DNA from: Chitinophaga vietnamensis
Lineage (GTDB): Bacteria; Bacteroidota; Bacteroidia; Chitinophagales; Chitinophagaceae
Assembly (NCBI RefSeq): GCF_902167635.1
Contig: NZ_CABHMS010000010.1
Coordinates: forward strand, 62,001-126,000
Length of the DNA stretch: 64,000 nucleotides
Reading direction: 5' to 3'
Below the pieces are notes generated by a model. The model was not told the DNA's origin and made no database searches. It saw nothing but the letters and a program-made list of their open reading frames with translations. Position 1 is the first letter of the stretch. Each line of letters begins with the position of its first letter. Made by a program: the position numbers and the translations under genes. Positions 26,301-39,753 of this stretch are shown here, piece by piece.

Positions 26301-28953
26301 ATTTCCGGTCGGGGCCTTTTTTTCCGAGGTAGTAGATGAGGCTGAACATGAAGTAGCGGGAAAGGACGTTAGCAGTGGTGTTTTCTATATAAGTTTCGTT
26401 TTGTACGCGGCGTATGGATTGGTTTTCTTTTAGCAGGTCGAAAGCATAGAGTTTGGCCACCATGCTTTTGTTTTTCAGGAAGGTTTTGGATAGTGAGGCA
26501 TTGAGCAGGGTAAAGTGTTGTTGTGAACCGGTGTTGATCTGGGTGTTCACAGCGGTGCTGACGGTGAAATTGAGTGGAAGGTAAACGGCGCAGTTGAAGA
26601 AGAAGAGGTATTGGATATAGTCGTAGTAAGTATTCTGGATTGAGTATTTATTGCCTGTGTACACCATGGTGGTGTTAGATGTTAATTCAAATAGTTTTTT
26701 CGTATAAGAAATAGTAAGTGCGTGTTTGGTTGTATAGTCTATGGTCTTGCTTTCCACGTTGTTGATGTAAGACAGGCGGCTGCCGGAAAATATCCCGCCC
26801 TCATAGTTAACGCTAATTCCACATCTTTTGAAATACTTTCCCAGAGAGCTTTCCAGCGAGTAGTGATACGCATCGCCAGCATTTACAGGCTTGCTTGTTT
26901 GCTTGCCAGTACCATCTGTTATAACAGCTATGCCAAAGGCATTTTTTATAACGGTGCCTGTTAATGTTAGATTAAAATTAAGGCCGTTGATACTGGTGGA
27001 ACTATAAACGAACCGGCCCATATGAGTGAACGATGTTTTAAGGTTGGGGTTCCCCAATTGCGTATATATTGGATCGGCTGTGCTATTTATGGGTGCCAGC
27101 ATTGTTATTTGTATAATACCGGGAGAGCTTGAATAAAGGAAGCTGAGATTCTTGAACTTATTGAACGCATAATTCAAATTGAAAACAGGTGAGAAGGTAT
27201 AAGCTGGTTGTTTAAAGAAATAGCCTTTTGTGATATTGTGGCTCTGTATATTGTTGATATTGAAAGTTCCACCGCAAATAAGTCTTAGCTTATCTGCGCT
27301 GATGTCAATATTGGTCTGCAATGATTGATTTAATTGCATATTGTGAGTATCATTTGACAGCGAGTCGTCTGGAATATTGTAGCATTGTTTGACCGGGTTA
27401 AAATTTCGTGTTTCACGGTCGTTATTGGAATTCTGTTTAGAAAGATTGTAGGCGATGGCAAATCTAACGAAATCAGAGAACTGGTCGTTATAGCTCACGT
27501 TTGCGTTAATAGTCCGCGTGTTTACATACTGACTAACATCTTGATCAATAGAATCATGGCTCCCCGACTGAAAATAGCTGATGGATTTGTTTAATTGTTG
27601 CTCGTTTTGTATTTCGCTGACATATCCTGCAGATACCCCCAAGGTCCTACCTTGTTTTTCGAATTGGTGAATATATTGTACGGTTGCATTATAGCTGATG
27701 TTACTTAATCTGTCGTTATTATTTGTAGCTCCGTGATTCAAGGTATCATTCTTACTGATAGTGGAGAATGAGCTATTGCTTAAACTCCGTTGATTGCTTT
27801 GTCTTACGAACCCACCAACCGTTATTTTGCTGTGGGGATCTACAGTAGCAGTTAGGTTGATGGCCCCCGCTTTATTATCAACAGTGCTTTGTGTATGCTG
27901 AGCAGATGAGTAGAAGGTATTATCTCCGGGAAGAATGTTTTGCCGTTGATCTTGATTGTCGCCTGTTTGTGATACAAATATCTGATTAATATAAGACGAT
28001 CCATTCAGTTTTTTTGAGAAGTCTTTGTTAAGACTGCCATCTAAGGTGGTCGTTTTCATCAGGCCCGGAGGGCTCAAGCCGATGGGGTTTTCATCACTAG
28101 AGCCGGGAGCCCTGTTGCCATTGATATTATTGTGTTGCAGCACCAAATAAAACTGCCTGTCATCTCGCAATATGTTAGCATTGGCCGCCGCCTGTTTAGT
28201 ATCATCAGTACCGTAACCCGCCGTGATAGCGCCTTTCACGCCTTGCTTCTGCTCCTTTTTGATAACCAGGTTGATAACCTTTTCATTGTTCGCGGGATCA
28301 GTAACGCCAACGAAATTCTTTTTATCCGTCAGTTGAATTTTATCTACAAGGTTTGCGGTGAGCAATTGTGCTACCTGGTTGGGAGAGGAAGAAGTGTTAG
28401 GCCCTTGCTGGAACAATGGTCTGCCATCTACGTACAGCTCTTTGATGGGTTTTCCCATGTAGGTGAAATTGCCTTCCATATCAACGGATAATCCCGGTAT
28501 TTTTTGCAAGAGATTTTTCAGTGAAGCATTTTCATGAACCGTGAACTGCCCGGCGTCAAATTCAATGGTATCTTTGCGCACCGTATACAAGGGCCGCTCC
28601 GCCTTGATCTCTACTTTGTTGAGGGTAATACCATATTTTGCGAGAGAGATATTGCCCAGGAACAAAGTAGACTTCCTATCGGTGACGGTTATACGTTTAT
28701 GATCACCCTGATAACCGAGATAGTTGATCACCATGTTGAAGTCGCCTTTGGGCGGTTTGGCAATCACAAAGTTTCCGGATTCATCCGACAGCGCCTGCGC
28801 CTTGATAACGGAATGATCGTTGTAAAGCAGGATACTGGCGCCAATCAGCGGTTGATGGGTATCCCGGTCGTATAGCTTACCTTTGATCTCCGTTTGTGCA
28901 GATGATTGCAGGAAAGTAAATAACAGTATGGTTAACAGTAAAGGTTTTATCAT
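26299..28953 (-). CDS. Outer-membrane beta-barrel protein, TonB-receptor-like
   Basis: 884 residues with signal peptide MIKPLLLTILLFTFLQ. A carboxypeptidase-regulatory-like domain follows (about 22-105; IKGKLYDRDTHQPLIGASI), then a plug-like region (KNLLQKIPGLSVDMEGNFTY, YVDGRPLF; about 135-225) and a long barrel ending in aromatic beta strands (FMFSLIYYLGKK). This is the 'outer membrane beta-barrel family' close to TonB-dependent receptors, though I see no TonB box and no SusD partner. The barrel region is visibly AT-richer than its neighbours, which may indicate transfer or relaxed composition. The ligand is unknown. The 207 bases upstream (28954-29160) hold only the promoter of the next gene. 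Confidence 0.85.
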   Translation of the reverse strand: MIKPLLLTILLFTFLQSSAQTEIKGKLYDRDTHQPLIGASILLYNDHSVIKAQALSDESGNFVIAKPPKGDFNMVINYLGYQGDHKRITVTDRKSTLFLGNISLAKYGITLNKVEIKAERPLYTVRKDTIEFDAGQFTVHENASLKNLLQKIPGLSVDMEGNFTYMGKPIKELYVDGRPLFQQGPNTSSSPNQVAQLLTANLVDKIQLTDKKNFVGVTDPANNEKVINLVIKKEQKQGVKGAITAGYGTDDTKQAAANANILRDDRQFYLVLQHNNINGNRAPGSSDENPIGLSPPGLMKTTTLDGSLNKDFSKKLNGSSYINQIFVSQTGDNQDQRQNILPGDNTFYSSAQHTQSTVDNKAGAINLTATVDPHSKITVGGFVRQSNQRSLSNSSFSTISKNDTLNHGATNNNDRLSNISYNATVQYIHQFEKQGRTLGVSAGYVSEIQNEQQLNKSISYFQSGSHDSIDQDVSQYVNTRTINANVSYNDQFSDFVRFAIAYNLSKQNSNNDRETRNFNPVKQCYNIPDDSLSNDTHNMQLNQSLQTNIDISADKLRLICGGTFNINNIQSHNITKGYFFKQPAYTFSPVFNLNYAFNKFKNLSFLYSSSPGIIQITMLAPINSTADPIYTQLGNPNLKTSFTHMGRFVYSSTSINGLNFNLTLTGTVIKNAFGIAVITDGTGKQTSKPVNAGDAYHYSLESSLGKYFKRCGISVNYEGGIFSGSRLSYINNVESKTIDYTTKHALTISYTKKLFELTSNTTMVYTGNKYSIQNTYYDYIQYLFFFNCAVYLPLNFTVSTAVNTQINTGSQQHFTLLNASLSKTFLKNKSMVAKLYAFDLLKENQSIRRVQNETYIENTTANVLSRYFMFSLIYYLGKKGPDRK

Positions 28954-29113
28954 TACAGCGATGGTTATACTGTAATATTATTATTTATAAAACCTGTTTA
29001 ACTGAAATGCATCTTAATGTGATTAATTTGGGGGAAAATAAATCATTGTGAAAATTGAATTCTCATAAATAGAAAGCCAGCTAGATATATAATATTTTAT
29101 ATCTTAATGTAAG

Positions 29114-29121
29114 TATCTTTG
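29114..29121 (+). promoter_or_regulatory. Bacteroidota -7 box of the DinB-fold gene
   Basis: TATCTTTG is an exact TAnnTTTG match 39 bases before the ATG at 29161. A TTG that could serve as an upstream start lies inside this box, which argues for the ATG as the true start. Confidence 0.55.
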
Positions 29122-29160
29122 TTTAATTGTTATGCATTTGTTATCAAACAAAATTTCTAC

Positions 29161-29637
29161 ATGAAAGACCAGACTGCCATCATTCACACACTGAAAGAGC
29201 TACTGCTCAAAGCTAATGCCCACGTGACTTTCGCCGATGCCGTAAAAAATGTACCAACCCATCTGCGTGGTGTGGTGCCACCTCATATGCCATATAGTAT
29301 CTGGCAACTTGTGGAGCATATCCGCATCACGCAATATGATATCCTGGAGTTTTCACGTAACCCTGATTATGAATCCCCATCATGGCCGGAAGGTTACTGG
29401 ACCAAAGCCACAGCGCCCGCCAGTGAAGAAGAATGGAAACAAAGCATTGCGCGCATCAAAAGCGATACACAGGCATTCATTGACCTGCTGGAAGCGCCCG
29501 GTGCGCAACTGTTTGAGCCATTCCCACATGGCGATGGCCAGCATCTTTTCCGGGAAGCGGTACTGATCGCGGACCATACAGCTTATCATACCGGCGAGAT
29601 CGTGGCACTGCGCCGCATGCTGGGGGCCTGGCATTAA
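29161..29637 (+). CDS. DinB-family four-helix-bundle protein
   Basis: 158 residues from the ATG at 29161. The protein has the DinB/YfiT pattern of three metal-binding histidines: His in WQLVEHIRI, and the pair in ADHTAYHTGEI near the C-terminus. DinB-superfamily proteins are often thiol-dependent transferases or hydrolases. This is notable because the gene overlaps by 4 bases, tail to tail, the last gene of the ergothioneine run, and EgtB carries the same fold. No substrate is evident. Confidence 0.85.
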   Translation: MKDQTAIIHTLKELLLKANAHVTFADAVKNVPTHLRGVVPPHMPYSIWQLVEHIRITQYDILEFSRNPDYESPSWPEGYWTKATAPASEEEWKQSIARIKSDTQAFIDLLEAPGAQLFEPFPHGDGQHLFREAVLIADHTAYHTGEIVALRRMLGAWH

Positions 29638-30629
29638 ATGCATTTCCACAAGCAATCGGCGAACCAGTGCCGCTGATCAAGGAAGCGCGCCACCGGCTTA
29701 AATCCGCTGCGGGCGGCCAGTTCGTCGGTTTCATCCAGATCATACTTCTGGGATATCTCCATATATAAAGGTTCATTTTCGCGGAAACGTATCGTCACGT
29801 CCTGACCGATGTGCACTTCCTGCTCCACAAGGCTGATCAGATAACTTTTGCAGGCGCCGCTCATCGGATCGTAAGTAGGGTAATGCTCGAATTTCGAAAT
29901 ATCGAAATCAGCTTGTAGCTCCCGGTTGATGCGCTGCAGCAGGTTAAAGTTGAATGCCTTGGTAATACCGCTGCTATCATTATAGGCGTTCAATATCAGC
30001 TGCGGATGCTTTTTCAGATCGAAGCCGATGAGCAACAGATCGCCAGATTGCAGCAAACGGCGCAGCTGCTGGCAGAAGGCCGTGGCCGCCACCGTACTGA
30101 AATTGCCGATATTGGCGCCCATCAGCAGCACTACTTTCTTTTTATCACTTAGCGTATTTACTTCTTTCAACATCTCAAAGTACTCCCCGTTCAACCCATG
30201 TACCTGCAATGCCGGCAAGCGTTGTGGTAATTCTTCCTGCAACTGCCGGATCACGTTAGCGGAAATATCCACCGGGAAATACGTATAGGCGACACCGTTA
30301 TCCAGTAGTTGCCGCAGCAGGTGCACAGATTTGGTGGCATCGCCGGCGCCCAGTTCTATGATGTCGTAATCACCGGCAAAACGGCTGAAAGCCTGAGCAA
30401 TATCCGCCGATTGCGTGGTCAGTATCTCCATCTCGCAATCAGTAAGATAATATTCATGACATTGCATGATCTGCTGAAAGAGCGCGTCGCCATTGGCGTC
30501 GTAAAAATATTTGGGATCGAGGTACTTCTGGGGGGCGGTGAGACCTTTTACTACATCCTGGTAGAAAAGGTCTGTTTGCCGGTTCCGCCGGCCAGCGACC
30601 AGTGTGGAAATTACAGTGTTGATGCTCAT
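29634..30629 (-). CDS. egtD: L-histidine N-alpha-methyltransferase (ergothioneine synthesis)
   Basis: 331 residues of the EgtD/DUF2260 SAM-dependent family. It adds three methyl groups to histidine to give hercynine. Visible landmarks are the N-terminal substrate segment YFYDANGDALFQQIM followed by EYYLTDCEMEIL, the SAM-binding glycine loop IELGAGDATKS, GANIGNFS, and the C-terminal YMEISQKYD, whose Glu-x-Ser fits the imidazole-binding pair known from mycobacterial EgtD. The usual ELGSG loop is ELGAG here, so this is a divergent branch. It lies 24 bases after egtB on the same strand and is the last gene of the run. Confidence 0.9.
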   Translation of the reverse strand: MSINTVISTLVAGRRNRQTDLFYQDVVKGLTAPQKYLDPKYFYDANGDALFQQIMQCHEYYLTDCEMEILTTQSADIAQAFSRFAGDYDIIELGAGDATKSVHLLRQLLDNGVAYTYFPVDISANVIRQLQEELPQRLPALQVHGLNGEYFEMLKEVNTLSDKKKVVLLMGANIGNFSTVAATAFCQQLRRLLQSGDLLLIGFDLKKHPQLILNAYNDSSGITKAFNFNLLQRINRELQADFDISKFEHYPTYDPMSGACKSYLISLVEQEVHIGQDVTIRFRENEPLYMEISQKYDLDETDELAARSGFKPVARFLDQRHWFADCLWKCI

Positions 30630-30653
30630 AACTCGTGGTTGTGTGAATGAAAC

Positions 30654-31805
30654 TTATCCTTTTGCCAATCTGATACCCGTAAATTGCCATCGCAGGTAAG
30701 GATGAAAGAAATTGCGGTAAGTGATACGGCTGTGATGCGGCGGCGTTACCTCCGAGCCGCCTCTGAGCACCATCTGGCTTACCATAAATTTACCATTGTA
30801 TTCGCCGATAGCGCCCGGGGCCTTGGTGAATCCGGGATAGGGGAGATAAGCGCTCTCCGTCCATTCCCAGCGCAGGCCCCAATTAAGTTGCGCCGCCGCC
30901 GCTTCCCATTCAAATTCGGTAGGCAGCCGCAGGCCTTTCCAGGCGGCGTATGCGGCCGCTTCATAATAATTGATATGACAAACAGGCGCTTCCGGCGCCA
31001 GTGGCTGTAAGCCCTGCCAGGTGTATTGCATCCACTGGCCATCGATATGATACCAGTACATGGGTGCTGCGACCTGATTATTTTTAACCCAATCCCAGCC
31101 TTCTGCATGCCAATGCCTGAAATCGCGGTAGCCGCCGGCGTTTATGAAGGCAAGGTATTCGCTATTGGTGACCAGCGTGTGGCTGATCTGATAATCGCCC
31201 AGGTATACTTTATGTCTGCCCAGCTCATTATCAAAACAAAATCCATCTCCCTGAAATCCTATCTCATACATCCCTGCGGGCATGGACAGCCAACCGCTTT
31301 TCGCGGTATCATTGGCAGGAGGCGTTTTGTGCGGATCGTAGGCCGGCATCAGTGGATTGTGGCCCAGGATATATTTGATATCTGTATATAACAGCTCCTG
31401 GTGCTGCTCTTCATGGTTAAGACCGAGTACCAGCAGCGCCTGAAGATCGGCTGGCAGTTCCTGGTTCAGGAAGATGAGCATAGCTTCATCCACATATCTG
31501 CGGTAGCGCATGATATCGGCTACAGCCGGGCGGCTCAGGTTGCCCCGGTCGGTGCGGATCACACGCGTGCCAACGGATTCATAGTAGCTGTTGAATACAA
31601 AATTATATTGCGGGTCAAATTCCGTATAGCCTTTGGCGTTAGGGCTGAGCAAAAAGGTCTCAAAAAACCAGGTGGTATGCCCGAGGTGCCATTTCGGTGG
31701 GCTCACATCCACTACTGGCTGCACTACATAGTCTTCCGTTTTAAGCGGAGCGCAAATGTCTTCCGATCTTTTTCTGATGGTAATATATTTTTCCCGAAGG
31801 TCCAT
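30654..31805 (-). CDS. egtB: Ergothioneine sulfoxide synthase EgtB
   Basis: 383 residues. A DinB-type N-terminal domain supplies the iron ligands His43 (KWHLGHTTWFFE), His131 and His135 (NHEEQHQELLYTD). The C-terminal FGE-sulfatase (SUMF1) domain has GMYEIGFQGDGFCFDNEL, LPTEFEWEAAAAQ, WEWTESAYLPYPG and RGGSEVTPPHHSRITYRNFF. EgtB is a non-heme iron enzyme that couples hercynine to a thiol with oxygen. No egtC (amidohydrolase) or egtA (glutamate-cysteine ligase) lies nearby, so the enzyme probably uses cysteine directly, as known for some bacterial EgtBs, rather than gamma-glutamylcysteine. It starts 4 bases after the transporter gene stop. It is not OvoA, because there is no C-terminal methyltransferase domain. 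Confidence 0.92.
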   Translation of the reverse strand: MDLREKYITIRKRSEDICAPLKTEDYVVQPVVDVSPPKWHLGHTTWFFETFLLSPNAKGYTEFDPQYNFVFNSYYESVGTRVIRTDRGNLSRPAVADIMRYRRYVDEAMLIFLNQELPADLQALLVLGLNHEEQHQELLYTDIKYILGHNPLMPAYDPHKTPPANDTAKSGWLSMPAGMYEIGFQGDGFCFDNELGRHKVYLGDYQISHTLVTNSEYLAFINAGGYRDFRHWHAEGWDWVKNNQVAAPMYWYHIDGQWMQYTWQGLQPLAPEAPVCHINYYEAAAYAAWKGLRLPTEFEWEAAAAQLNWGLRWEWTESAYLPYPGFTKAPGAIGEYNGKFMVSQMVLRGGSEVTPPHHSRITYRNFFHPYLRWQFTGIRLAKG

Positions 31806-31809
31806 ATGA

Positions 31810-33378
31810 TTATTGTTGTCCGATATATTCCTTGAGCGATGAGATACTGTTGATATGCAGCCGGGTGGCTTGTTCCCGGCGCATCATCAGGGCGTAGGTA
31901 TTGTTAAATCCGATGGGTTTCATCCATTTGATCCGGTATTGTTGTTCGAATGCCTGGCTTACATAGTCATATACTTTTTTGTTGTCGCTGATGATGGAAT
32001 CGGTTACGGTGGCGGGCGCCTGTAGTATGACGAGCAGCCCGGTGCCGCTATATTCCGGATACATATCTATTTCACCGTTGTTGAGGGCATCAAAACATAT
32101 TTTGGTGCCGCCCAGTCCTGTTTTGGTAACCACTGCGAGGTCGGTATTGCCTTCGATCAGGTAGCGGTACATATTGGCGAGGATGTATCCGTCGCCGAAT
32201 ATTTTGGAGCCAATGCGGATCGTGCCTTTTTTGCCGTTGCGCGCAGGCTTCCACAGACGCATGGCTACGAGATAATCGCGGGCCACTTTTTCCGGGCTTT
32301 CTTTCAGAAAATCCACACGGTAATTGAGGACCGTCATAGTGCTATCATTAATTGTACCAGCCAATATATTGAGGACGTTTTCGAGTTCCGGATATTGTTG
32401 CAAGGTAGCCATTCTTACGATCGGTGCAGCATAATAAGGGGGGAAGATGTGCTTGTCGTCTTCCAGTACGGTAAGATCAAATGCTTTCACACGCCCGTCG
32501 GTGCTGCTTCCGCTGATCACGTCGATCTTTTTTTCATATGCTGCTTTGTACATGATCATGTCGCTGATCACCAGGGTGCGCATATGCAGGCCGTATACGG
32601 ATTGCAGCCCTACGTCGCCATCTCTGCGGCCCATGAATTCTGGCGTGAAGCCCGCTGTGAGCCGGGCGCCGCCACCTGTTGGTAACAGGTAAAATGAGGA
32701 GAGCAACAGCAATATGAACGGTAAAGTGTACAAAATGGATTTAGAACGTTTGATATTTATATGTTGGAGGCGCGACAGGAGCCAGTCGAAGAGGATGGCC
32801 AGCAAAGCCGCCGGTATGGCGCCTGCAAGCAGCATGTTCGTATTGTTAAGTGCGATACCGCCAAAAATAAATTCTCCCAGTCCGCCTGCTGCAATATACG
32901 CCGCCAGCGTAGCCACGCCTACGTTGATAACGGTGGCGGTGCGGATGCCGGCCATGATCACGGGCAGTGCGAGCGGCAATTGTACTTTGAACAATAATTG
33001 CGACGGGGTCATGCCCATGCCGGTGGCGGCTTCCATTACTACGGGGTCCACGCCATTGATGCCGGTATAGGTATTGCGTATCACGGGGAGCAGTCCATAA
33101 AGAAAAAGCGCTACGATGGCGGGTTTGGCGCCGATGCCCAGCAGGGGTATCATAAATCCCAGCAGTGCGATGCTGGGAATGGTTTGCATGATGCCGGCAA
33201 ATCCCAGCACCAGCCCCGCGAGGCCTTGCCGCCGGGTGATGAGGATACCGAGCGGTACGCCGATGATGATGGCCAGCAATACCGAGATGAAGGTAAGCCC
33301 GGTGTGGGTAAGGGTTTGCTCCAGCAGTTTGTTAGACTGTTGCTGCATGAAGGCGAACAGGTTTGTTGCTGTTTCCAT
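31810..33378 (-). CDS. Fused ABC permease/substrate-binding protein, EgtU-like, with permuted binding domain
   Basis: 522 residues. The first 230 form an OpuB/ProW-type permease with about six helices and the cytoplasmic coupling motif EAATGMGMTPSQLLFKVQLPLALP (115-138). The rest is a periplasmic OpuCC/EgtU-type binding domain. Segments that in OpuCC come last (PEFMGRRDGDVGLQSVYGL, STDGRVKAFDL, FFPPYY-like IFPPYYAAPI, LNYRVD; 240-372) come first here. Segments that normally come first (TIRIGSKIFGDGYILANMY, GLGGTKICFDALNNGEID, GFNNTYALMMRRE; 386-517) follow. The domain is therefore circularly permuted. EgtU of Helicobacter and Streptococcus is also a permease-binding fusion that imports ergothioneine. 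Its position next to egtB supports that ligand over glycine betaine or choline, but this is inference. Confidence 0.85.
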   Translation of the reverse strand: METATNLFAFMQQQSNKLLEQTLTHTGLTFISVLLAIIIGVPLGILITRRQGLAGLVLGFAGIMQTIPSIALLGFMIPLLGIGAKPAIVALFLYGLLPVIRNTYTGINGVDPVVMEAATGMGMTPSQLLFKVQLPLALPVIMAGIRTATVINVGVATLAAYIAAGGLGEFIFGGIALNNTNMLLAGAIPAALLAILFDWLLSRLQHINIKRSKSILYTLPFILLLLSSFYLLPTGGGARLTAGFTPEFMGRRDGDVGLQSVYGLHMRTLVISDMIMYKAAYEKKIDVISGSSTDGRVKAFDLTVLEDDKHIFPPYYAAPIVRMATLQQYPELENVLNILAGTINDSTMTVLNYRVDFLKESPEKVARDYLVAMRLWKPARNGKKGTIRIGSKIFGDGYILANMYRYLIEGNTDLAVVTKTGLGGTKICFDALNNGEIDMYPEYSGTGLLVILQAPATVTDSIISDNKKVYDYVSQAFEQQYRIKWMKPIGFNNTYALMMRREQATRLHINSISSLKEYIGQQ

Positions 33379-34320
33379 TTACTGTTTTTTATAGGTGGCG
33401 ATGGCCTCCATCACATTATTTCCGTTGAGTTGTTTTGTTGTTTGCTGGTATTCCACTGATACCTGCCCCTTGGTGAGAGCTGCCAGCGCTTCCCAGCAGG
33501 TGGCGCTGACGGGCAGGGTAGCGGCGCTGTTGCCGTTGCCGCTGCTCAGGAACGGCCAGATATCCTGCAATACCAGGGATTTGAGCTCCAGTTGCAGGCG
33601 TTGTGGTTCCAGGAAATGTTGCACGACGCTGTTAGCCGGTTTGAACAGCAGTTCCGTTCCTTTGCCTATCTGCTGGATGCGTCCTTCGTTCATCAGGCAG
33701 ATGCGATCGCCGAGTTCGAAGGCTTCTTCCACATCATGCGTGACGAGGATGATAGTTTTGCTTTTAAGTTCATCCAGCGACAGGAACTCTTTTCGTACGC
33801 TCGTGCGGGTGAGCGGGTCGAGGGCGCCGAAGGGCTCGTCCATCAGCAGTACGGGCGGATCGGCTGCCAGCGCGCGTGCCAGGCCTACGCGCTGCTGCTG
33901 GCCGCCGCTGAGCTGTTGCGGGTACATGGCGGCGTAGGTATCGGCAGGTAAATGCAGTTTATCCATGAGCGTTAGGATGCGTTCACGGATCTGTTGTTTG
34001 TTCCATCGCAGAAGTTCCGGTACGATGGCAATGTTCTCCTGCACGCTATAGTGCGGGAAGAGGCCATTGTTTTGCAGCACGTAGCCGATGTTGCGCCGGA
34101 GGGCGGCAACATCCTGTTGCTGAATATCCTGTCCGTTTACGTATATGCGTCCGCTGCTGGCGTCGAGCAGGCGGTTGATCATGCGCAGGGTAGTGGTTTT
34201 GCCGCAGCCGCTGGTGCCGAGCAGCACGAGGGTTTCTCCTTGTGGCACTTCAAAGGATATATCGTCTACCGCTTTTTTTTCCGGTCCAAAAAATTTACTT
34301 ACGTGCTCAACTTTTATCAT
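33379..34320 (-). CDS. ABC transporter ATP-binding protein, EgtV/OpuCA-like
   Basis: 313 residues. Walker A GTSGCGKTT (35-43), signature LSGGQ (137-141), Walker B VLLMDEPF and the H-loop VTHDVEEAF are intact. The family signature of the betaine/choline/ergothioneine transporter ATPases is seen in EVPQGETLVLLG and in LLDASSGRIYVNGQDI. The C-terminal regulatory part after residue 235 is short and does not contain a full pair of CBS domains, so ionic-strength gating of the OpuA type is unlikely. Its stop codon abuts the start codon of the fused permease gene without a gap. A flavin oxidoreductase gene ends 42 bases upstream. Confidence 0.88.
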   Translation of the reverse strand: MIKVEHVSKFFGPEKKAVDDISFEVPQGETLVLLGTSGCGKTTTLRMINRLLDASSGRIYVNGQDIQQQDVAALRRNIGYVLQNNGLFPHYSVQENIAIVPELLRWNKQQIRERILTLMDKLHLPADTYAAMYPQQLSGGQQQRVGLARALAADPPVLLMDEPFGALDPLTRTSVRKEFLSLDELKSKTIILVTHDVEEAFELGDRICLMNEGRIQQIGKGTELLFKPANSVVQHFLEPQRLQLELKSLVLQDIWPFLSSGNGNSAATLPVSATCWEALAALTKGQVSVEYQQTTKQLNGNNVMEAIATYKKQ

Positions 34321-34362
34321 TCGATATCAAAATTAATGGGGAATTATTTACTCATATTGCCC

Positions 34363-35748
34363 CTATTTATCCAGTGTCATAAAAAGATTGTTCAGTGATT
34401 CGGCATACAGTGGATGTGCGAAAACCATATCGCGCAATTGCGATGCGGTGATGCCGGCGGCCATGGCCATTTGTATCAGCGACATCAGTTCACCGCCTTC
34501 TTCTCCTACGACGGCGGCGCCCAGTATCTTTCCGGTGGCGGCATGTACCACGGCCTTCAGGAAGCCGCTGGTATGGCCCGTTTCGATGGCGCGCGCTACT
34601 TTGTCCATGCCGAGGTGCGCTACCTGTATGGGATACCCCTGCCTTACGGCTTCTTTCTCTGAAAGCCCGATACGCCCGAGTTGCGGATCGGTGAACATAC
34701 AATAAGGCACCTGCCGGGTCTTGACAGTCATATTACCCTGTTCAAACAGGTTGCGGTATACGATAAGATGATCATGATAGGCGATGTGTGTAAATGCCGG
34801 GCCGCCTTTCACATCACCCAGCGCAAAGATGCCGGGGGCGCTGGTTTCGAGCTTGTCGTCCACTTGAATGAATCCGTGTTCGTCGGTGGTAACATTGGCT
34901 TTACTCAGCTGTAAGGTGGCGGTTTGCGGTTTACGGCCCGTAGCTACCAGTATATGCGTGCACGTCAGGGTGCGCCTGCCGGTGCCGGTGATGATATCCA
35001 AAGATAATCCGGCAGCGGTTCTGGTGATCTTGTCGGCCTTCGAAGAGGTATATATCTTCATGCCTTCATCTTCCAAAATATTCCTGATCACAGCGGCTAC
35101 GTCTTCATCTTCGTGCGACATCAATTGCGGCGAACTTTCGATGATACTAACGTTACTGCCTAAACGCTGAAATAGCTGTCCCAGTTCAAGGCCAACATAG
35201 CTGCCGCCCAGCACCAGCAGCTCAGGTGGTACGATGGTTTCATCGAGCAGGGTGGTGGAGGTGTAATAGGGCAGGGTAGATAGTCCGGGAATATCGGGGA
35301 TGAGCGGCGTTGTGCCGGTATTGATGAATATCTTTTCTGCGCTGAGGGTGCGTACATTTCCGCCTGCGGCCTCCACCAGCAAGGTTTTGGGGCTGGTGAA
35401 CGCGGCGCTGCCATAGATGATGTTCAGCCCCGGTTGCGCTTCCAGTCCTTTTTGTACGCCATAGCGGAAGCGTTGTACGATCTCATTTTTGCGGGCAACG
35501 ATAAAAGGCAGATCGATATCATGGTGGCCAGTGATGCGCACGCCCCAGGAGATACTGTTAGCCACGGTGTGGGCTACGCGGGCGCAGGCGATCATGGCTT
35601 TGGTGGGAGTGCATCCGTCGTTGATGCAGGTGCCACCCAGGAGGCGTTGTTCGATGACAGCAGTTTTATAGCCTTTGGCCGCCAGTTTCCTGGCGAGCGG
35701 ATTACCGGCCTGTCCGGAGCCGATAATAATGGCATCAAACTTTTCCAT
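34363..35748 (-). CDS. Flavin-dependent pyridine nucleotide-disulfide oxidoreductase
   Basis: 461 residues of the dihydrolipoamide dehydrogenase/mercuric reductase class. FAD-binding GSGQAG (10-15), redox-active disulfide Cys41/Cys46 in GGTCINDGCTPTK, NAD(P)-binding LVLGGSYVGLELG (about 179-191), second FAD motif GIFALGDV, and the C-terminal acid-base motif AHPLYAES with His445 and Glu450. It lacks the N-terminal heavy-metal domain and the C-terminal Cys pair of true mercuric reductases, so the substrate is likely a small disulfide. As first gene of the run with the ergothioneine transporter and synthesis genes, it could regenerate reduced ergothioneine or another thiol. That is an inference. 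A degenerate -7 box (AATATTTG, minus strand, 35774-35781) lies 26 bases upstream. Confidence 0.88.
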   Translation of the reverse strand: MEKFDAIIIGSGQAGNPLARKLAAKGYKTAVIEQRLLGGTCINDGCTPTKAMIACARVAHTVANSISWGVRITGHHDIDLPFIVARKNEIVQRFRYGVQKGLEAQPGLNIIYGSAAFTSPKTLLVEAAGGNVRTLSAEKIFINTGTTPLIPDIPGLSTLPYYTSTTLLDETIVPPELLVLGGSYVGLELGQLFQRLGSNVSIIESSPQLMSHEDEDVAAVIRNILEDEGMKIYTSSKADKITRTAAGLSLDIITGTGRRTLTCTHILVATGRKPQTATLQLSKANVTTDEHGFIQVDDKLETSAPGIFALGDVKGGPAFTHIAYHDHLIVYRNLFEQGNMTVKTRQVPYCMFTDPQLGRIGLSEKEAVRQGYPIQVAHLGMDKVARAIETGHTSGFLKAVVHAATGKILGAAVVGEEGGELMSLIQMAMAAGITASQLRDMVFAHPLYAESLNNLFMTLDK

Positions 35749-38461: not shown

Positions 38462-38653
38462 AGGTTGTCTTACTCAGGATTATACTGATTGAAAGGATTA
38501 CCAGGATTTTTTTACCAGAATTAATAAAGATTAAAAAAGATTCGCGAAGATCAGTTCGAATTGATCTTTGCGAATCTTTTTTAATCTTTATTAATTCTGG
38601 TAAAAAAATCCTGGTAATCCTTTCAATCAGTATAATCCTGAGTAAGACAACCT
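38462..38653. repeat. 192-bp near-perfect palindrome, family A copy 1
   Basis: The two 96-base halves are inverted copies with essentially two mismatched positions, centred on TTCGAA at 38555-38560. The outer 40 bases contain CTCAGGATTATACTGATT and GAAAGGATTACCAGGATTTT, and the inner part contains TTAATAAAGATTAAAAAAG. It spans the gap between the aldo/keto reductase (stop 38454) and the convergent aminotransferase. The right arm extends about 30 bases into the aminotransferase coding sequence. A second copy lies at 41997-42249. Confidence 0.93.
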
Positions 38654-39753
38654 AGCAGTGTATCCACGTCTTTTCTATTATTATAAAAGTTCAATCCGAT
38701 TGTGAGCTGCTTGTTTTTGTAGCGGGCTACGATGTTTCTTTTTTCTATGTTGGCGAATTGCTCGGGCGTAATATCCAGGCGCTGGATGGCGGAAAGGTGC
38801 TGCGCCGGGAAGTTGGAAAGGATGCGGATGTTGTGTTTGGCGGCTTGTTCGTGCAGGTAACGGATCAGCGTGTGTACGTAAGCGTTAATATGATCAAGGC
38901 CGATGTTGTTGAGGTATTCGAGGGTATGCTTCAACATCAGGATGTTGAAGTAGGGCAGGGTGCCGCCTTCAAATACCTGGGCATTCTTTTTAGGATGGAA
39001 CACGGTATGGTCTTGCACGGAGTGGAAATCAGGTTGCGAGTATTCCACATTGTACCAGCCCATCACCTGCGGAGGATATTGATCGAGGATCTTTTGAGAG
39101 ATATACATGCCGCCGATGCCGTAGCCCCCTGTTACCCATTTGTAGGCATGGAAGAAATAAATATCGACATGACAGGCCTGTACATCCACCGGCTCTACGC
39201 CAAAGGATTGTGTGGCATCTACGATATGGATCAGGTCATGTTTTTTGCATAGCTCGCCTATTTTTTTGAGGTCTTGTTTGAAGCCGGTGCGGAACATGAC
39301 ATGACTGGTGATGAGTAGGCGGGTGGCAGGTGTGATTTGCTTTTCAATATCTTCGATACTGATCACGCCATTGCCCGAATGCCCTACCAGGTGCACTTTG
39401 TAGCCGTTATGCATCCAGTTGACGAAGCTGGTGGGAAATTCATCGTGCATGGTAATGATCTCGTAATGTTTCGGGAACATACCATGCAGGTTGGTGATAC
39501 CTTGTGCAGTATTGGTGATGAAGGCGATCTCTGAGGGGCTGGCATTGATCATACGTGCCAGCAGCGCACGGGCCTCGCTGGTCTGGCTATCCCAGGAGGG
39601 CATTACCAGCCGGCCTTTACGGCTTTGCTCTTCCAGCAGGGCGGTGGCATGCGCTACATACGAACGGCTCACAGGGCCGCCACCATTGGTGCCCAGATAG
39701 ATATAATTTTCTGATGCCGGGTAATCTTCCCTTATTTTTTCCCAATTGATCAT
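38623..39753 (-). CDS. Class V aminotransferase (PLP-dependent)
   Basis: 376 residues of the cysteine desulfurase/isopenicillin-N epimerase-like fold. The PLP lysine is in FFHAYKWVTGGYGIGG, preceded by the PLP-ring aspartate in HIVDATQSFGVEPV and the phosphate-binding FITNTAQGITNLHG. There is no catalytic cysteine loop of the IscS/SufS type, so an epimerase, lyase or aminotransferase is more likely than a desulfurase. The last residues (TQDYTD and stop) are encoded inside the arm of the 38.46-kb palindrome, so the present C-terminus was probably set by that element. It is divergent from the GH3 gene. Confidence 0.9.
   Translation of the reverse strand: MINWEKIREDYPASENYIYLGTNGGGPVSRSYVAHATALLEEQSRKGRLVMPSWDSQTSEARALLARMINASPSEIAFITNTAQGITNLHGMFPKHYEIITMHDEFPTSFVNWMHNGYKVHLVGHSGNGVISIEDIEKQITPATRLLITSHVMFRTGFKQDLKKIGELCKKHDLIHIVDATQSFGVEPVDVQACHVDIYFFHAYKWVTGGYGIGGMYISQKILDQYPPQVMGWYNVEYSQPDFHSVQDHTVFHPKKNAQVFEGGTLPYFNILMLKHTLEYLNNIGLDHINAYVHTLIRYLHEQAAKHNIRILSNFPAQHLSAIQRLDITPEQFANIEKRNIVARYKNKQLTIGLNFYNNRKDVDTLLGCLTQDYTD

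Follow-up and report, generated by a model that had tools for sequence, protein, structure and literature searches.

We analyzed a 64,000-nucleotide stretch of the Chitinophaga vietnamensis genome (hereafter the window; contig NZ_CABHMS010000010.1, positions 62,001 to 126,000 of the forward strand) and found in it a conserved run of five genes that joins the ergothioneine synthesis genes egtD and egtB to an EgtU-like ATP-binding cassette (ABC) importer and a flavin disulfide reductase. The genes, the families they belong to, their conserved linkage and a circular permutation in the binding domain of the importer are directly visible in the sequence. On the strength of the linkage, it is likely that the run makes and takes up ergothioneine, and we hypothesize that it also re-reduces it. 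The five open reading frames, all on the minus strand, lie where the original prediction had placed them, with the same intergenic gaps of 24, 4, 0 and 42 bases:

29634..30629, minus strand: egtD, L-histidine N-alpha-methyltransferase, 331 amino acids (TIGR03438, PF10017)
30654..31805, minus strand: egtB, iron-dependent sulfoxide synthase with DinB_2 and FGE-sulfatase domains, 383 amino acids (TIGR03440)
31810..33378, minus strand: EgtU-like permease/substrate-binding fusion, 522 amino acids, binding domain circularly permuted (OpuAC and BPD_transp_1)
32689..33378, minus strand: permease part of the fusion, residues 1-230 (PF00528; matches the 7ahc OpuA permease)
32254..32664, minus strand: binding-domain half that is C-terminal in EgtUC, fusion residues 239-375, corresponding to EgtUC chain 138-274 (45% identity)
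31816..32229, minus strand: binding-domain half that is N-terminal in EgtUC, fusion residues 384-521, corresponding to EgtUC chain 5-138 (35% identity)
33379..34320, minus strand: ABC importer ATPase of the betaine/proline/choline type, 313 amino acids (PF00005, ABC_tran)
34363..35748, minus strand: flavin disulfide reductase (C41-x4-C46, H445, E450), 461 amino acids (Pyr_redox_2 and Pyr_redox_dim)

That the transporter serves the ergothioneine pathway is indicated most strongly by its linkage to egtB and egtD, because this linkage survives rearrangement and is common to permuted and non-permuted forms of the fusion. Using an alignment of 11 permuted fusions, we scanned the species genomes of GTDB and examined the best 80 of at least 587 relatives, mainly from Chitinophaga, Mucilaginibacter, Pedobacter, Segetibacter and other Bacteroidota; because these loci were chosen by similarity, the counts describe near relatives only. 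The order reductase-ATPase-fusion-egtB-egtD was found in 60 of the 68 loci with room on both sides, the remaining 8 lacked only the reductase, and none lacked egtB or egtD. Over all 80 loci, egtB lay downstream of the fusion in 79 and egtD in 78 (one cut), the ATPase lay upstream in 77 (the other three being on short contigs), and the reductase was directly upstream in 64, absent in 10 and not visible in 6. One exception, L077, is a short contig of a metagenome-assembled genome (MAG) in which egtD and egtB are on the opposite strand and the ATPase has no match. The expected conservation of the neighbourhood is thus borne out among near relatives, and it suggests that the genes form one working unit. 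A locus labelled as the actinobacterium Williamsia sp. (L104, JADCRZ010000075.1) also carries the five-gene run and is probably a misnamed or misbinned MAG.

The association extends to wider samples. In the order, 12 of the 248 genomes sampled have the transporter, which is permuted and complete in 11 and non-permuted in 1, and all 12 have egtB and egtD; in the phylum, 24 of 395 genomes have it (22 full length, 2 permease-only matches), all 24 with egtD. Overall, egtD occurs in 55 and 127 of these genomes, respectively, so that most egtD-bearing genomes are without the transporter. Counted by genus, the enrichment gives p ~5e-6 (order) and ~3e-6 (phylum), uncorrected for phylogeny. egtD lies within 8 kb of the transporter in 18 of the 24 phylum genomes and 6 of the 12 order genomes, the latter comprising 6/6 from the window's family and 0/6 from family f18. 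We fetched 22 of the 24 phylum places to compare gene orders, leaving out G377 and G000 (the genome of the window itself). All five genes were together in 7/7 places of family f23, egtD-egtB-ATPase-fusion was found in 2/2 of f24, and egtD-ATPase-fusion-egtB in 1/3 of f30, the other two being unlinked. In f44, egtD was upstream in 4/4, ending 1.4-5.3 kb from the fusion, and egtB was matched in 2/4; families f29 (3/3) and f54 (1/1) showed no linkage. In f67, a non-permuted fusion with the substrate-binding domain (SBD) first adjoins egtB and egtD in 2/2.

The same-strand run comprises exactly five genes because its neighbours lie on the other strand: a DinB-like gene (window 29155-29637, plus strand) converges on egtD with a 4-base overlap, and past the reductase lies a divergent tRNA-dihydrouridine synthase. 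As one conserved unit, the five genes may be co-transcribed. A TAnnTTTG box of the Bacteroidota type occurs 15 bases before the ATPase start and before none of the other four genes. All 25 of the loci L032-L056 have, close to the operon, a DinB-like gene (60-72% identical) that converges on egtD; a DinB_2 domain is also part of EgtB.

Both synthesis genes exceeded curated cut-offs, EgtD narrowly (TIGR03438, 294.0 bits against 290.9; PF10017, 330.6 bits) and EgtB with 545.3 bits against 360 (TIGR03440). egtD is the sole PF10017 match in the genome, and its product, when aligned with mycobacterial EgtD (4pim), retains the residues of the histidine pocket. For EgtB, identities as the selenoneine synthase SenA (NF041186, 356.6 bits, cut-off 420) and as OvoA (109.7 bits, cut-off 400) were rejected. 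Its closest solved structure is Chloracidobacterium thermophilum EgtB (407 bits), followed by SenA (134) and the mycobacterial EgtB 4x8b (127), and the iron-binding histidines H43, H131 and H135 are each retained in 97% or more of 93 sequences. EgtB had been proposed to use cysteine directly, given the absence of egtA and egtC. The first half of this argument stands, in that EgtA (TIGR03444) has zero matches in the genome and the nearest EgtB, that of C. thermophilum, is reported to prefer cysteine (PMC10903977); the search did not cover EgtC. The window EgtB lacks a loop at residues 307-308, amounting to ~22 residues when compared with C. thermophilum EgtB and ~30 codons when compared with the five f18 genomes that have split matches.

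The importer has the composition of EgtU, a permease fused to a substrate-binding domain with a partner ATPase (TIGR01186, 292.4 bits, below the 326.6 cut-off). It had been described as having the same fusion architecture, which is not the case, because the two halves of the binding domain are swapped: the window order is permease, C-half, N-half, not permease, SBD N-half, SBD C-half as in EgtU. The permuted order was seen in 110 of 112 loci examined (one species counted twice) and the non-permuted order in an E. faecalis homologue. The AlphaFold model follows the OpuAC chain order, and EgtUC structures are the top solved relatives of the binding domain (189.7 bits). Judged by sequence, the permuted EgtU-like fusion is a new variant. 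Circular permutation among betaine-binding proteins has already been described in CPSARST (1SW1, 1R9L and 2B4L; PMC2395249), and the OpuA paper PMC2861598 contains no passage on permutation.

Several observations weigh against a unit that makes, imports and regenerates ergothioneine. The transporter is not near egtD in 6/24 phylum and 6/12 order genomes, and the reductase is missing in 10 of the 74 named loci in which it could be assessed. Neither promoter-like sites (10, against 8.9 in shuffles) nor terminator-like sites (7 and 7.6) are in excess, and no gene in the genome exceeds the EgtE cut-off (TIGR04343, 400 bits). The closest solved structure of the reductase is 6kgy, the E. coli RclA (283.8 bits), with a mercuric reductase next (255.3). 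An acetylcholine-sensor precursor binding protein (178.9 bits) comes close behind EgtUC among the relatives of the binding domain, and the cage tyrosine Y419 is a serine (residue 291) in the window and 30 other sequences, being tyrosine in 60. The remaining points concern the residues that set EgtU apart. According to PMC9732360, the EgtU determinants are a Y-to-F switch (F293, Y337) and G244, homologues in other clusters are without these, and the substitution G244F weakens EgtUC binding ~100-fold, the variant also being less stable. Across 91 fusions (the window, 10 order relatives and 80 named loci), the equivalents of G244, F293 and Y337 are F394, Y443 and F491, that is F, Y, F, in 91/91.

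F, Y, F is also what the glycine betaine-binding AfProX has at these three positions, the only ones that the comparison covers (PMC9732360). The same residues occur in Comamonas, Synechocystis and Fusobacteria homologues, and those of Rhizobium and Paracoccus share the first two; for a Gemmatirosa plasmid match, a quick open reading frame pattern search found nothing. The equivalents of K242, T296, N339, Y341, E375, R379 and Y443 are retained in 91/91, and these cage and carboxylate contacts indicate only a betaine-type ligand because homologues from other phyla mostly keep them; we therefore dropped K242/T296/E375/R379 as evidence for ergothioneine. The Y419-to-S change (31/91) is nearly confined to Chitinophaga and could mark a shifted ligand. 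A tie between this change and the presence of the reductase was perfect in 11 sequences but was rejected among the 91, where 36 reductase-bearing ones have Y. In H. pylori, some transporters that fall outside the signature group are described as still having a part, at lower affinity, in the uptake of ergothioneine (PMC9732360), so the missing signature weakens the ergothioneine reading without excluding it. Of the predicted uptake of ergothioneine, the support from gene context thus stands, whereas the EgtU signature is absent. Since that signature is absent, the case for ergothioneine import comes from gene context, which gives ergothioneine about an even chance of being the substrate and makes it probable that the substrate is either ergothioneine or hercynine.

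Other substrates were weighed against the same evidence. A glycine betaine/choline-type osmolyte or methyl-donor transporter might stand beside egtD by chance or because it feeds the methyl pool, since betaine can supply the pool needed for three methylations; the AfProX-like pocket in 91/91, the K, T, E and R contacts shared with other phyla, and top curated models that are betaine/choline systems (all below cut-off) would agree with this. It accounts poorly for the co-occurrence with egtD (24/24 and 12/12) and for linkage in several gene orders, and the genome encodes a further OpuAC-family binding protein that is not permuted, so we regard such a transporter as rather improbable. Import of hercynine or similar precursors, which would feed EgtB directly and by-pass EgtD, seems to us unlikely to a slightly greater degree. 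Hercynine is the product of EgtD and the substrate of EgtB, it would fit the same betaine cage, and the thione-selective set of EgtU is absent; yet egtD, which a by-pass would not need, is kept in all transporter genomes sampled (12/12, 24/24), and pneumococcal EgtUC discriminates against hercynine (PMC9732360). Contig C7 of the window's genome has two copies of a segment, at least 3.7 kb long and exact reverse complements of each other, ~64 kb apart (28315-32037 and 92780-96502; L002, L003), each carrying an OpuAC-family binding protein; they may be a biological repeat or an assembly artefact.

The reductase contains FAD/NAD domains, a dimerisation domain, the C-x4-C motif and a C-terminal His-Glu. 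Among 73 sequences selected for an identity of 45% or higher, each of the catalytic residues C41, C46, H445 and E450 is retained in 97% or more, which makes a disulfide-type reaction plausible. The best curated model is NF004992 (484.7 bits, below the 629 cut-off); the RclA, lipoamide dehydrogenase and MerA models gave 369, 361 and 359 bits, all below cut-off, and dihydrolipoamide dehydrogenases are also among its structural relatives. Judged solely by its position, ergothioneine disulfide is a possible substrate, which we propose tentatively; the literature searched, as far as its text was available, describes no bacterial ergothioneine-disulfide reductase. The enzyme may instead reduce oxidants or metals, as RclA and MerA do, and belong to the same stress regulon as the egt genes without acting on ergothioneine. 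We give this nearly an even chance, considering the closest structures and the curated scores above together with its absence from 10/74 loci; in 8 of these 10 the remaining four genes are all present and fully visible. Its place directly upstream in 64/74 and the retained C-x4-C and C-terminal His-Glu argue against this alternative. In a genome whose run has no adjoining reductase, an old-yellow-enzyme NADPH dehydrogenase (L019:11083-12153, plus strand) begins 11 bases after egtD.

As predicted, the lyase for the EgtE step is not in the run, and a weak candidate was found elsewhere in the genome. The best of four TIGR04343 matches is a class-V pyridoxal phosphate (PLP) enzyme (G000:C7:235414-236649; 108.1 bits against 400). 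The score by itself says little because the model matches in all 14 control genomes, in none above the cut-off, and the SufS model scores higher (141.7 bits, below its own cut-off), as do cysteine desulfurase structures (114.6 against 54.4 for EgtE); both comparisons count against the candidate. In its favour, it is 46-49% identical to an enzyme whose gene adjoins egtD in convergent orientation in C. tropicalis, Chitinophaga sp. CF118, Flexibacter sp. ATCC 35208 and C. silvisoli, and 36% identical to one encoded at a distance of ~2 kb from egtD in both a Mucilaginibacter and a Bacteroidetes MAG; the search covered 96 loci and found such relatives in 7, with one species counted twice. The M. 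smegmatis EgtE has R202-K203 at the PLP lysine (PMC10805701), and the candidate has a similar Arg-Lys pair in 'RKFLRGPRG', a motif match only and not a residue-by-residue alignment. At E 1e-40, the candidate occurs in 11/23 egtD-bearing and 2/20 egtD-lacking genomes (p 0.008, hand-picked genomes), but within the window's family, from which all egtD-lacking genomes come, the contrast is only 2/7 against 2/20. Four of 11 permuted-fusion genomes have no such enzyme and must therefore use another lyase. Taken together, this makes the C7 enzyme a candidate EgtE-type lyase with somewhat less than even prospects. A different class-V PLP enzyme that resembles aminotransferases, encoded 3 kb away from the operon (window 38623-39753, minus strand) and below all curated cut-offs shown, was rejected as EgtE (TIGR04343 56.2 bits, no Arg-Lys motif); it is 25% identical to the C7 candidate.

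In the pathway that we propose, EgtD would trimethylate histidine to hercynine, EgtB would couple hercynine with cysteine to the sulfoxide, and a PLP lyase encoded outside the run would release ergothioneine. The ABC importer would bring ergothioneine, or else the betaine hercynine from which it is made, back in from the periplasm via the membrane-tethered permuted binding domain, and the flavin reductase may convert an oxidised form, most likely the disulfide, back to the thione. The fullest version is a closed redox cycle in which ergothioneine is made, recaptured (as the thione, perhaps the disulfide) and re-reduced as a main, actively maintained small thiol, with a permuted domain that recognises it by pocket chemistry unlike that of EgtU and the first dedicated bacterial ergothioneine-disulfide reductase; as a whole, we think this version unlikely.

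No description of synthesis, import and reductase together was found in the accessible parts of the literature searched, and pneumococcal EgtU serves a bacterium unable to make ergothioneine (PMC9732360). The question why a producer keeps an importer in one run with its synthesis genes can be tested directly. If the pocket binds ergothioneine without the EgtU signature, ergothioneine importers are being predicted by too narrow a rule. The permuted domain offers a natural experiment on how binding proteins evolve, and the reductase is a concrete candidate for the enzymatic regeneration of oxidised ergothioneine in bacteria.

The run resembles several known systems and differs from each. With S. 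pneumoniae EgtU the importer shares a permease fused to a quaternary-amine SBD and a separate ATPase, the halves being 45% and 35% identical; it differs in its swapped halves, in the absence of the G244/F293/Y337 signature and in belonging to an ergothioneine producer, beside egtB and egtD, whereas EgtU has been reported nearly only in Firmicutes (PMC9732360). It is only 16% identical to OpuAC of the OpuA/OpuAC systems (L. lactis, B. subtilis), and its sequence groups with EgtUC/ProX-type proteins. Unlike the known permuted glycine betaine-binding proteins, the permuted domain here lies within the EgtUC/ProX-type family, in a membrane fusion and linked to ergothioneine genes. The flavin enzyme is like RclA- and MerA-type reductases in its domains, FAD/NAD fold and C-x4-C centre, and differs from them as an operon partner of egt genes that scores below every curated cut-off shown. 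Finally, EgtD and an EgtB nearest to a cysteine-preferring enzyme place the synthesis genes with the aerobic ergothioneine pathway of the C. thermophilum EgtB type, from which the locus differs in having a transporter and a reductase in the same run and no EgtA match.

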